Shown: in pieces, positions 421 to 60,523 of the stretch
How positions within the stretch are numbered: position 1 is the stretch's first letter
Layout: every line of letters starts with the position of its first letter
Origin: Deltaproteobacteria bacterium
GTDB lineage: Bacteria > Desulfobacterota > Desulfomonilia > UBA1062
Reading direction: 5' to 3'
Assembly: GCA_029547185.1 (NCBI GenBank)
Contig: JAKPPU010000046.1
Span: 124,001 to 188,000, forward strand
DNA: 64,000 nt
Notes under the pieces: generated by a model
Told to the model about the DNA's origin: nothing
The model's database searches: none
What the model saw: only the letters and a program-made list of their open reading frames with translations
Translations under genes and position numbers: made by a program

Positions 421-1137
421 ATGAAGAGATTCCCCTGTTTGTTCATGATCTTCCTGATTTCCATTCTCCTCATATGCCCCCGGATTTCTTATTGCGCCCC
501 CAGGGCGTTTATTCAGAACACCGTCTATGATGCGGGAGACGTTCCCCAGGGTAAGGAAATATCTAACGAGTTCACCCTGAAGAACACCGGGGACCAGCCG
601 CTGACATTCAAAGTGAGGCCGTGCTGAGGCGTGGAGATATCTGCCCCGGGCGGGCAGACCATAGCTCCCGGCGATGCGGGGAAGATCATCGTGAAAATGT
701 CCACCGGTCCGTTCACGAACGATCTCTTTAAAGAGGTGAAGGTCGAAACGAACGACCCGAAGGCGGACCTGATTGTCCTGACCATGAAGGCAAAGGTCAC
801 CGAGATGCTCAAGATCAGTCCCAGGCTGGTCAACTTCGGCAGGATGATGAAAGGCCAGACCGCGAGCAGGGAGATCTCGGTGGAGAACGTGAGCGAAAGC
901 TCCATCAGGATAACCAGGCTGGAAGCCACGCCCGAGAACCTGCTTGCCGTCCAGCCCTCCGAGCCCTTCACCCTGAAGCCGGGACAGTCGAAGAAGCTCA
1001 CCGTAAAGATATCGACCGGATCGTCAGGCGGGTTTGTCGGCGGGTATGTCAACCTGGAAACCAATCTGGAGTATCTCCCGAAAAAAACCGTCCACGTGCG
1101 TGTCGAGGTGAAAGAAAAACAGGAATCGGCACGATGA
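421..1137 (+). CDS. Secreted DUF1573 protein, candidate selenoprotein (Sec69 encoded by UGA 625-627)
   Basis: Starts at ATG 421 behind a strong AGGAGGTGA site. Residues 1-25 form a hydrophobic Sec signal peptide. The frame is open to 1137 except for one TGA at 625-627, and protein similarity continues in the same frame on both sides. Residues about 35-130 form a DUF1573 domain (GDVPQGKEISNEFTLKNTGD, then TIAPGDAGKI); about 140-235 form a second such Ig-like domain. The UGA falls where DUF1573 proteins normally have the first Cys of a CGC motif: here the local sequence is VRPC-U-GVEI. A GC-rich hairpin follows 13 nt after the UGA. With Sec inserted the protein has 238 residues. The alternatives are a nonsense mutation (pseudogene) or a restart at GTG 631, which would remove the signal peptide. 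The DUF1573 assignment is confident; selenocysteine is inferred from motif position and the hairpin. Confidence 0.72.
628..660 (+). promoter_or_regulatory. Candidate bacterial SECIS hairpin
   Basis: Directly after the in-frame UGA (625-627) the mRNA can form a 6-bp stem, CTGCCC (641-646) with GGGCAG (652-657), closing a 5-nt loop CGGGC (647-651). The distance from UGA to the apical loop is 19 nt, and a G occupies the second loop position. As I recall the published bacterial SECIS consensus (loop 3-14 nt, stem of at least 4 bp, 16-37 nt spacing, G in one of the first two loop positions), this fits. It is a short element in GC-rich coding DNA, so chance remains possible. Confidence 0.55.
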
Positions 1138-1165: not shown

Positions 1166-2692
1166 ATGAAGAGAAGCGCGCGGAGAAATATCATCGCGGT
1201 CGGAGGACTCACCGGCATCAGCCGTATTCTGGGCTTCGTCCGCGATATGGTCATGGCGTGGATTCTGGGGGCCGGGGTCCTCACAGACGCCTTCATCGTC
1301 GCCTTCAGAATACCCAATCTCCTGCGCCGGTTCATGGCGGAAGGAACGGTCAGCGTAGCCTTCATCCCGGTGTTCTCGGAGGCGAAGGAGAAGGAAGGCA
1401 TCGCGAAGGCATTCGAGCTCACCCGGGATATGCTCACCTTCATGTTCTATGCCCTCACCGCCGTCGTGATCATTGGCGAGATCATTGCTCCCGCCATGGT
1501 GGGCGCCCTGGCGCCGGGGTTTCTGGGCGACCCGGTGTTTGACGTCGCGGTGCGCCTCACCCGGATCATGTTCCCTTTCATCCTGCTCATCGGGATCGCT
1601 GCACTGCTCATGGGCATCCTCAATTCCCTGGGGCACTTCACGGCCCCCGCGGGCGCCCCGGTTCTCCTCAATGTGTTCATGATCGGCGTCCCTGTCGCAG
1701 GCTATGTGATGTATCCGATATTCGACAGGCCCGAAGATGCCTTCGCCTGGGGCGTCATCCTGGGAGGCATCGCGCAGATCATCCTTCAGATGATCCCTCT
1801 CAGGATCATGAAGGTCCCCTTGAGATTCACGGCCCACTTCTACCATCCGAGGCTCAGGCAAGTCCTGAAGCTCATGGGCGTCGCCGCCATCGGGGCGTCG
1901 GTCTATCAGCTCAACGTGTTCATCGGAACGCTGCTCGCATCGCTCCTTCCGACAGGCAGCGTCTCCTACCTCTACTACGCCAGCCGCATCCTCGAGCTTC
2001 CCCTGGGGCTGTTCGCCTTCTCCGTGAGCAACGTGATGCTCCCGGCGCTGAGCACGGCATTTGCCCGGTCCGATCGCGAGAAGGTAGCGAGCCTCACGGG
2101 CGACTCGATGATCGCCGTGCTCATCTTCACCATCCCGGCCACGATCGGGATGCTCGTCCTTGCAGAGCCGATCTTCGCTGTGCTCTTCATGCGGGGGAAA
2201 TTCGCGATGGCGGATGTTCACGCCTCGGCCTTTGCCCTGCAGATGTACGCCTTGGGCTTGAGCGCCGTGGGCGCTTCGAGAATCCTGACGCAGACGCTCT
2301 ATGCCATGCAGCAGCCCAAGGAGGTGGTCAAGACCGCCTGGATCAGCCTGATCATCAATGCCCTGTGCAGCGTCGCCCTCATGCCCTTCATGGGCCACGG
2401 CGGCATTGCCCTGGCAAGCAGCATCTCGATTGCGGTTCAGATGGTCATCATGTACCGGATCATCTCGAGGCAGGGGATCACCCTTCCGCGGGAGATCTGG
2501 ATCAAGACGGCGCGGATGATCGGTGCTTCCCTGGTCATGGGAGGGGTCCTCCTCCTCTTCCTGCATACGAAGTTCTGGATGAACGGACTGTCGATTGTAA
2601 GCGTCTCGATCCTCCTGTGCGCCGTTGCCGTCGGAGGCGGGCTGTACTTCGCCATGCTGTGGTTCATGGGGATGAGATATTCCATCCGGTGA
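1166..2692 (+). CDS. murJ: Lipid II flippase MurJ (MviN)
   Basis: Integral membrane protein that flips the peptidoglycan precursor lipid II across the inner membrane. The 508-residue length and about 14 hydrophobic segments match the MATE-like MurJ family. The N-terminus is diagnostic: ISRILGFVRDMVMAWILGAG followed by DAFIVAFRIPNLLRRFMAEG, including the conserved arginines of the first helices and the PNLLRRF motif. It starts at ATG 1166, 28 bp after the DUF1573 gene, with only a weak ribosome site, so translation may be coupled to that gene. A long antisense frame covers the whole gene but has no recognisable protein features. No truncation or missing segment was seen. Confidence 0.95.
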   Translation: MKRSARRNIIAVGGLTGISRILGFVRDMVMAWILGAGVLTDAFIVAFRIPNLLRRFMAEGTVSVAFIPVFSEAKEKEGIAKAFELTRDMLTFMFYALTAVVIIGEIIAPAMVGALAPGFLGDPVFDVAVRLTRIMFPFILLIGIAALLMGILNSLGHFTAPAGAPVLLNVFMIGVPVAGYVMYPIFDRPEDAFAWGVILGGIAQIILQMIPLRIMKVPLRFTAHFYHPRLRQVLKLMGVAAIGASVYQLNVFIGTLLASLLPTGSVSYLYYASRILELPLGLFAFSVSNVMLPALSTAFARSDREKVASLTGDSMIAVLIFTIPATIGMLVLAEPIFAVLFMRGKFAMADVHASAFALQMYALGLSAVGASRILTQTLYAMQQPKEVVKTAWISLIINALCSVALMPFMGHGGIALASSISIAVQMVIMYRIISRQGITLPREIWIKTARMIGASLVMGGVLLLFLHTKFWMNGLSIVSVSILLCAVAVGGGLYFAMLWFMGMRYSIR

Positions 2693-4951: not shown

Positions 4952-6356
4952 TCCACCGCGGGTGGGTGATTCCGTATTTTTTGATCTTGTAGTGGATCAC
5001 GCGTTTGCTGATCCCTAAAGAATCGGCGGCATTCTTCTGGATCCAGTCGTTCTTTCTCAGGGCATCGAGGATGCTTTCCTTCTCGTTCACGGCCAGAGAG
5101 GAGAGCCTGACGGTTTCCTCCGCCGGCTCCTTATCCTTCGTCATTTCGTCCTGGATCGTTATATCGTGCTGATGGATGACATTCCCTTCGGCGAGCAGGA
5201 TCGCACGCTCGATGGAGTTGCGTATCTCCCGGACATTTCCCGGCCAGTCATAGGATATGAGGGTTGAAAGGGCGGCCTCATCGATCTCGATGTCCGGTTT
5301 CTTGAACTCTTTGGAGTATTTTTTCATGAAGTACCGGACCAGGGGCTCGATGTCTTCCTTGCGATGCCGGATGGGGGGTATGTCGATGTTCACGACATTG
5401 ATGCGGTAGTAGAGGTCTTCGCGGAACCTGCCCGCAAGGACCAGACTGCGGATATCCTGGTTCGTAGCTGCAATGACCCGCACATCGACCTTGATGGTAC
5501 GCTCGCCGCCCAGCCGCTCGAATTCGCGCTCTTCGAGCACCCGCAGGACCTTTGCCTGGAGCGAAGGGTCCATGTCCCCGATTTCATCGAGGAAGATGGT
5601 TCCCATATTGGCCTGCTCGAATCTCCCGGTTCTCGTTTTCACCGCACCGGTGAACGCGCCTTTCTCATGGCCGAAGAGCTCGCTCTCGAGGATATTCTGG
5701 GGCAGGGCCGCGCAGTTCACCTGGACGAAGTTGTTGTCGCTCCGATGGGAATTGTGATGGATGGCCCCGGCAATCAGGCCTTTGCCGACGCCTGTCTCGC
5801 CGGTGATGAGAACGGTGGAATCGGCCTTTGCCACCTTCTCCACCATCTTGAGTACCTTTTTCATGGAAGGGCTGTCTCCCATGATGTCGCCGGTATGATA
5901 GATGATATCCTCCTGGGTGTGCCGGAGGTAGTCGATCTCGTTCCTCATGCGCTTGATGGCCAGCGCATCGTCCACCTTCTGGACGATCTCCTGGAGGCCG
6001 AAGGGCTTCTGGATGAAATCCTGGGCCCCGTTCTTCATGGCCACCACGGCGGTGTCCACGGAGGCGTACCCGGTCATGACGATCACGATGGTGCTCAGGC
6101 TCAGGCCCTTGACCTTCTTGAGGAGCTCTATCCCGTCCATTCCCGGAAGCTTGAGGTCGGTGAGCATGAGGTCGTAGATATACTTGTTCATCCGCCCGAA
6201 GGCCGCTTCACCGTTTTCTACGAGCTCGACATCGTGGTTATGCCTTTTCAGCTCCTGGAAAAGGATCTGCCCCAAGTTGATGTCGTCTTCGACAATGAGT
6301 ATATGTGCCATCTGTTTGCTGTCATCGGATTTTTTAAGGGAAAACTTTATGCTCAT
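4938..6356 (-). CDS. Sigma-54-dependent response regulator (NtrC family)
   Basis: Three-domain transcription activator. A receiver domain (about 17-130) has phospho-acceptor Asp67 in [13 protein letters not shown] and the acidic pair EDD. The AAA+ domain (about 155-390) has Walker A GETGVGKG near 186-193 and an intact GAFTGA loop at 233-238, the sigma-54 contact. The C-terminal Fis-type helix-turn-helix (about 430-465) reads [20 protein letters not shown]. It acts on promoters of the -24/-12 class after phosphorylation. No cognate kinase is adjacent. The start at 6356 is behind GGGAGG; an internal ATG at 6311 ([10 protein letters not shown]) would also give a complete receiver but has no ribosome site. 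It overlaps the GAF/GGDEF-like gene tail to tail. Confidence 0.93.
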
Positions 6357-6412
6357 CGATCGAAGGCCCTCCCGGAAAGGGAGGAAAGAATCACGCGCCC
6401 GCCCGGGGATGT

Positions 6413-6441
6413 TTGTTGACCAATCCCTTCCGGTATACTAT
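6413..6441 (+). promoter_or_regulatory. Sigma-70-type promoter for the operon beginning at 6507
   Basis: TTGTTG (6413-6418), a 17-nt spacer and TACTAT (6436-6441) lie in the divergent gap upstream of the metallo-hydrolase. An overlapping TTGACC and TATACT give an alternative register with poor spacing. Confidence 0.45.
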
Positions 6442-60162: not shown

Positions 60163-60523
60163 CTCCAAGAACATACTCATAGTAGATGATTCGGATGAGC
60201 TGACGAACGTCATTTCCGACTTCTTAAGCATGTTCGGATACTGCGTGCATACGGCGAAAGACGGGATCGATGCCCTCAAGCGCCTCGAGGGGCAGTCCAT
60301 GGACATCGTGGTCAGCGACATTCACATGCCGAGAATGGATGGATACACTCTGATGACCGAGATCAAGGCCCGGTATCCCCGGACCCCCATCATTCTCATT
60401 ACCGGATTCGGTGTGAGCGAGGCAAAGAAGATGGCCTTTGAAAAGGGTGCGGACGCCTTCGTGGCAAAGCCGTTCCATTTGAAAGATCTGAAGGGCGTGA
60501 TAGATTCCGTCATCAGCCATTGA
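60155..60523 (+). CDS. Single-domain response regulator (CheY-like)
   Basis: A 122-residue receiver with acidic pocket DDSD, Asp55 in IVVSDIHMPRMDG, Thr in LITGFG and the switch Lys in AKPFHLKD. No output domain. It overlaps the preceding gene by 8 bp. Likely phosphorelay partner of the hybrid kinase. Confidence 0.94.
   Translation: MDNSKNILIVDDSDELTNVISDFLSMFGYCVHTAKDGIDALKRLEGQSMDIVVSDIHMPRMDGYTLMTEIKARYPRTPIILITGFGVSEAKKMAFEKGADAFVAKPFHLKDLKGVIDSVISH

Follow-up and report, generated by a model that had tools for sequence, protein, structure and literature searches.

DUF1573 (pfam07610) is listed as a selenoprotein with the motif UGC in the relevant passages of PMC9312934, where the entry is credited to a 2007 publication about the symbiont of Olavius algarvensis, and in those of PMC13188914, while the GOS paper, in its part on these proteins, lists OS_HP2, pfam07610, with a UxC motif (PMC2398784). 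NCBIfam has a model, NF041425, named 'OS_HP2 family (seleno)protein', with a cut-off of 100 bits. The preliminary description of the locus analysed here had stated that no DUF1573 selenoprotein was described; this was wrong, OS_HP2 being listed both in reviews and in NCBIfam. What is new is the CUG layout, the DUF1573 selenoprotein family being already known. This CUG form is absent from the main-text passages on DUF1573, OS_HP2 and choice-of-anchor selenoproteins that the literature search covered.

A DUF1573 gene with a probable Cys-Sec motif

The window, i.e. the whole stretch of 64,000 nucleotides that was analysed, carries at 421-1137 of its plus strand a DUF1573 gene interrupted by a single UGA, whose coordinates, frame and motif were confirmed in the sequence. 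With the UGA read through, it codes for 238 residues followed by a stop, Sec being residue 69. The Cys codon TGC (622-624) and the lone in-frame TGA (625-627), in the context R-P-C-TGA-G-V, form the vicinal Cys68-Sec69 pair (622-627, plus strand) that had been announced. Downstream coding also remains in frame, with 169 sense codons after the TGA and a TGA stop at 1135-1137. In the same read-through translation, Pfam DUF1573 (PF07610) scores 68.7 bits, above its gathering cut-off of 26.1, and the HYDIN/VesB-like Ig domain 70 bits. This seemingly stop-broken gene, from a group of anaerobic bacteria, is almost certainly intact.

On the same strand, an AGGAGG at 408-413, ending 7 nt 5' of the ATG at 421, is a likely ribosome-binding site. 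Residues 1-25 (421-495) probably form a signal peptide with a putative cleavage site at ISYC/APRA, and the AlphaFold2 model has a helix at residues 4-18. Domain 1, the DUF1573/HYDIN-VesB-like Ig domain identified by Pfam and AlphaFold2 (residues 32-126; 514-798), bears the Cys-Sec turn and is followed by a second Ig-like domain (residues 130-212; 808-1056), supported by the model and by NCBIfam choice_anch_D above its cut-off. The strands of the model (mean pLDDT 90.4, pTM 0.71) fit two Ig-like domains; the product is predicted to be exported and to fold in this way. The PDB fold matches of this predicted structure are mostly axonemal and other Ig arrays, 2qsv included, and carry no information on the activity of the protein.

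A profile alignment placed the Sec, as had been proposed, at the cysteine of the family's CGC motif, more precisely in its first Cys column. When profiles were compared, the match to the UGC type (9 sequences) had a probability of 99.9%, with Sec on Sec, Cys68 aligning with T or G/S/A of the UGC type and V71 with its second Cys. The comparison was extended to 25 CUG/TUG genes, comprising 23 distinct UGA contexts among the matches listed and two genes added later from genomes G015 and G023. Cys is found at position -1 of Sec in 23 of the 25 and V or A at the second motif Cys column in all of them, with no other Cys common to the whole set. By a script, 14 of the 25 genes have the motif Cys as their sole Cys past the presumed signal peptide; the script misplaced the end of that peptide in L011 and L013, and correcting L011 by hand gives 15. 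In the AlphaFold2 model of the window protein, residues 66-70 make a turn between strands 61-65 and 71-74; in the UGC-type model (mean pLDDT 83.6, pTM 0.59), the equivalent turn, at 81-83, contains the Sec. Cys68-Sec69 is predicted to lie in the turn of domain 1 where relatives bear CGC or UGC.

As a whole, the window protein resembles OS_HP2 in its DUF1573 domain and in the column of its Sec, but it reads C-U-G-V (C-U-G-V/A in its taxonomic family) where the known motif of OS_HP2 is U-G-C. It is an OS_HP2/DUF1573 variant whose second motif Cys is shifted from +2 of Sec to -1. Its score on NF041425 is 72.3 bits, under the cut-off, while the UGC proteins L134 (109.8 bits) and L108 (130.7 bits) both pass; the 23 aligned family members (21 Sec, 2 Cys) all match this model at 1e-5 and none at 1e-28, the best value being 1.6e-23. 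Mammalian thioredoxin reductase has a C-terminal GCUG and flavin/NADPH domains. The window protein shares with it a vicinal Cys-Sec pair followed by Gly, and one copy in genome G008 reads GCUGV, but only Ig-type Pfam domains are present and the motif lies at residues 68-69 of 238 instead of at the C-terminus; the resemblance is an analogy only.

Recurrence of the UGA and Sec/Cys alternation

A query from the portion 3' of the UGA matched 41 of 60 relatives. In a profile search of the class (42 genomes), all 24 genomes belonging to the taxonomic family contained one match or more in which the sole internal stop was a TGA. The motif at this UGA is C-U-G-V or C-U-G-A in 22 of the 24 and T-U-G-V in two (G011 and G017), which form a single genus. 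The 11 named loci in the genome-contig search come from Syntrophaceae bacterium UBA6087, UBA1062 and Deltaproteobacteria MAGs, UBA6087 being classed by NCBI in Thermodesulfobacteriota.

Judged from these sequences, the recurrence of the UGA in 24 out of 24 family genomes excludes chance. It also bears on the reading in which the UGA is a genuine termination codon, or arose by a pseudogene mutation, and translation yields just an exported fragment of 68 residues. The standard code does end the frame at 625, but the presence of a UGA copy in all 24 genomes, the conservation of the protein downstream (63 to 32% identity to the window protein among aligned family Sec members), the covariation of the hairpin and the presence of selenocysteine genes (see below) make that reading very improbable.

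Several family loci depart from the common pattern. The TUGV loci L027 and L030 (G011 and G017, respectively) have Sec without an adjacent Cys, and the presumed mature part of L027 is devoid of Cys. G008 (L148, G008:C96) carries tandem CUG genes, with PCUGV and GCUGV, and has no murJ within the 5 kb stretch. In G015 and G023, a Cys paralogue has the best score, ahead of the UGA copy in second place; these Cys paralogues and two further ones in G012 carry C-x(1-2)-C.

At the phylum level, 139 of 395 genomes matched at 1e-15. The rows analysed consisted of 30 loci and 60 regions among the matches listed, plus the loci from the search of the 60 relatives. For the resulting 122 rows, the motif column holds U in 88 and C in 34, with no other residue, although the search profile favours Cys at this column and hence biases which homologues turn up; the expected alternation of UGA and Cys was borne out. 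These rows correspond to 109 distinct proteins, of which 75 have U and 34 have C. Outside the family of the window, the Sec forms among the matches listed are U-G-C and one U-A-C, the latter in L131 (G353), which is also the longest end branch of the tree described below. The source genome itself has, on a different contig, a second UGA-bearing DUF1573 gene, with PTUGC, at 106-921 of locus L134 (G000:C85:84000-85000), and UGC copies are also present in G001, G004 and G018 (L108, L112 and L132). With at least 48 distinct UGA contexts of the UGC type among the matches listed, the single U-A-C included, the UGC form is, on sequence evidence, common in the phylum Desulfobacterota.

A tree of the 109 rows, with the motif columns omitted, was built by a quick method with SH-aLRT support only; in it, all 25 CUG/TUG rows share a single branch with four Cys paralogues (SH-aLRT 96). 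The minimum number of changes that the supported branches force over the whole tree is 5 (UGC), 6 (Cys) and 2 (CUG). The family Cys paralogues were considered as outgroups and rejected, since they are nested inside the CUG clade. Their position there (L075, L076, L029 and L032, all with C-x(1-2)-C) represents an exchange between Sec and Cys in one bacterial family.

Concerning the neighbourhood, the lipid II flippase gene murJ (1166-2692, plus strand; family match) starts 28 nt 3' of the DUF1573 gene and adjoins the UGA gene in all family genomes but G008 (23 of 24). In G015 and G023, the stretches examined around the Cys paralogues contain no murJ. The stretch upstream of the gene also matches in 18 of 24 family genomes, as far as a rough out-of-frame query can tell, and the linkage with murJ may be ordinary local synteny. 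A scan of 300-1300 for promoters and terminators gave nothing above chance. A more elaborate reading would see here a separate subfamily, its U-G-C/C-x-C rebuilt to a vicinal C-U (Sec alone in one genus), in which selenium-dependent UGA decoding immediately 5' of murJ would also tune murJ translation by coupling; it is considered improbable. Elsewhere in the window, a scan for further TGA-split genes, of which the top 14 were judged by eye, gave none that was convincing. At 60324, on the minus strand, a TGA separates two open stretches and has a 7-bp stem at a distance of 37 nt; it is probably a mere gene start, because the surrounding translation reads G-M-U-M.

The candidate SECIS hairpin and the probable decoding of the UGA

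A candidate SECIS hairpin lies at 640-658 (plus strand), where 640-646 pairs with 652-658 around the loop CGGGC (647-651), 19 nt after the UGA. Loop and spacing are those of the preliminary description, which had given a stem of 6 bp; the stem is in fact one of 7 bp. According to the pertinent passages of PMC13188914, a bacterial SECIS is a hairpin 16-37 nt after the UGA, with a loop of 3-9 nt, a G in the first two loop positions, a stem of at least 4 bp and an MFE of at most -7.5. The window hairpin fits these rules, as had been recognised, by its spacing, its loop and its stem, and the MFE limit of -7.5 kcal/mol is reached by 23 of the 25 CUG/TUG hairpins and missed by two. A search of Rfam gave no SECIS family match at the hairpin.

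The longest rule-allowed stem averages 6.36 bp over the 25 CUG/TUG genes and is at least 6 bp in 21 of them, vs. 3.96 (sd 0.24) after synonymous recoding, the maximum of 200 draws being 4.60. The 48 UGC-type genes have a mean stem of 5.02 vs. 3.92 (sd 0.18) for their null. By contrast, the 33 Cys homologues used as a control show no excess (3.45 vs. 3.77): Cys-type DUF1573 genes (CGC) share the domain with the window gene and have their Cys at its Sec column, but lack its excess of SECIS-like stems. All but one of the 25 CUG/TUG genes have a spacing of 19 or 20 nt, the exception being L026 with its longest rule stem at 30 nt, and three of the 25 hairpins have only 4 contiguous bp by the stem rule.

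For the fixed seven-pair stem, 153 of 175 cells are paired vs. 146.2 (sd 1.5) in shuffles, none of 5000 being as high, under a null in which codons are shuffled per column among rows sharing the amino acid and which does not preserve the relatedness of the rows; an earlier count on 23 genes, before those of G015 and G023 were included, had 15 of 2000 shuffles as high. Two-sided changes of pairs include T-A to C-G and G-C, C-G to A-T and C-G to T-A. Conservation is poor for the outermost pair (window positions 640 and 658), which is a standard pair in 10 of 25. A plain 60-nt fold of the window region is unremarkable (z -0.65, 44 of 200 shuffles as good) and the whole-region synonymous z-scores are modest (means of -1.04 for CUG, -1.11 for UGC and -0.20 for Cys); the rule-based stem count gave a clear signal where both of these were weak.

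The source genome, a 4.19-Mb draft, consists of 215 contigs; its completeness is 96.03% and its contamination 5.31%. All the components of the selenocysteine machinery that were to be sought were found in it. Matches were counted only above curated cut-offs, because looser control searches matched many ordinary genomes. The tRNA-Sec scores 71.6 bits (Rfam cut-off 47) and was identified by ARAGORN as tRNA-SeC with the anticodon tca (UCA). The selA gene scores 531.6 bits and selD, which itself has one in-frame TGA, 383.9 bits. At 270.5 bits, selB is over its cut-off with its first 50 positions missing at a contig end; a fragment matching selB positions 1-94 lies at one extremity of a different contig (C129:1-285), and the two may be one gene.

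TGA also terminates 17 of 37 chosen long ORFs in the window. Since TGA is an ordinary stop elsewhere in the genome, there is no genome-wide change of code. Reading of the UGA as Cys, Trp or Gly, through a variant code or plain readthrough, has no supporting point in the data, while the normal TGA stops, the tRNA-Sec with its UCA anticodon, the hairpin and the alternation with Cys at this column speak against it, and its probability is close to nil. Pseudogene, stop and variant code were all rejected, given the conservation of the UGA, the covariation, the sel genes and the normal TGA stops. From the conserved UGA, the UGA/Cys column, the SECIS and the sel genes taken together, we infer that the gene codes for a selenoprotein: with very little doubt, the UGA at 625-627 would be decoded as Sec by SelA, SelB, SelD and tRNA-Sec, under the direction of the hairpin that lies 19 nt 3' of it.

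Possible role of the Cys-Sec pair

The likeliest function of Cys68-Sec69 is that of a redox centre. With moderate confidence, it may act as a periplasmic thiol/selenol centre through a vicinal Se-S ring. The reduced selenolate of Sec69 would attack an oxidised substrate (disulfide, peroxide or polysulfide), Cys68 would then close a vicinal selenenylsulfide ring with Sec69, and an external reductant would later reopen it. As the TUGV genes have no Cys before Sec, the vicinal ring would not be essential everywhere.

In the main rival reading the protein is a selenoprotein as well, but its Cys-Sec pair would serve to bind a soft metal (Hg, Ni, Cu or Fe), with no redox turnover. In its favour, CU-motif selenoproteins named in passages of a 2026 review are linked to metals by their names (MerB-like SaoL, HgcA, MbdU; PMC13188914), the predicted fold is Ig-like and not thioredoxin-like, and the TUGV members retain a single Se ligand. 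However, the invariant columns near the motif hold no conserved His, Met or second Cys, and none of the 10 Pfam-scanned window neighbours belongs to a metal transport or resistance family (5364-6419 had no match), although this evidence is weak. Metal binding is rather unlikely, although less so than the other alternatives. The account as a whole, i.e. Sec decoding, an exported product with two Ig-like domains, a redox Cys-Sec pair and a variant of OS_HP2, is regarded as quite probable.

DUF1573 selenoproteins have a second active-site layout, situated under the cut-off of the curated model. As the CUG genes fall below the NF041425 cut-off, standard annotation likely truncates them. With UGC, CUG, TUG and CGC forming a natural series in one fold, the role of a Cys beside Sec becomes directly testable.
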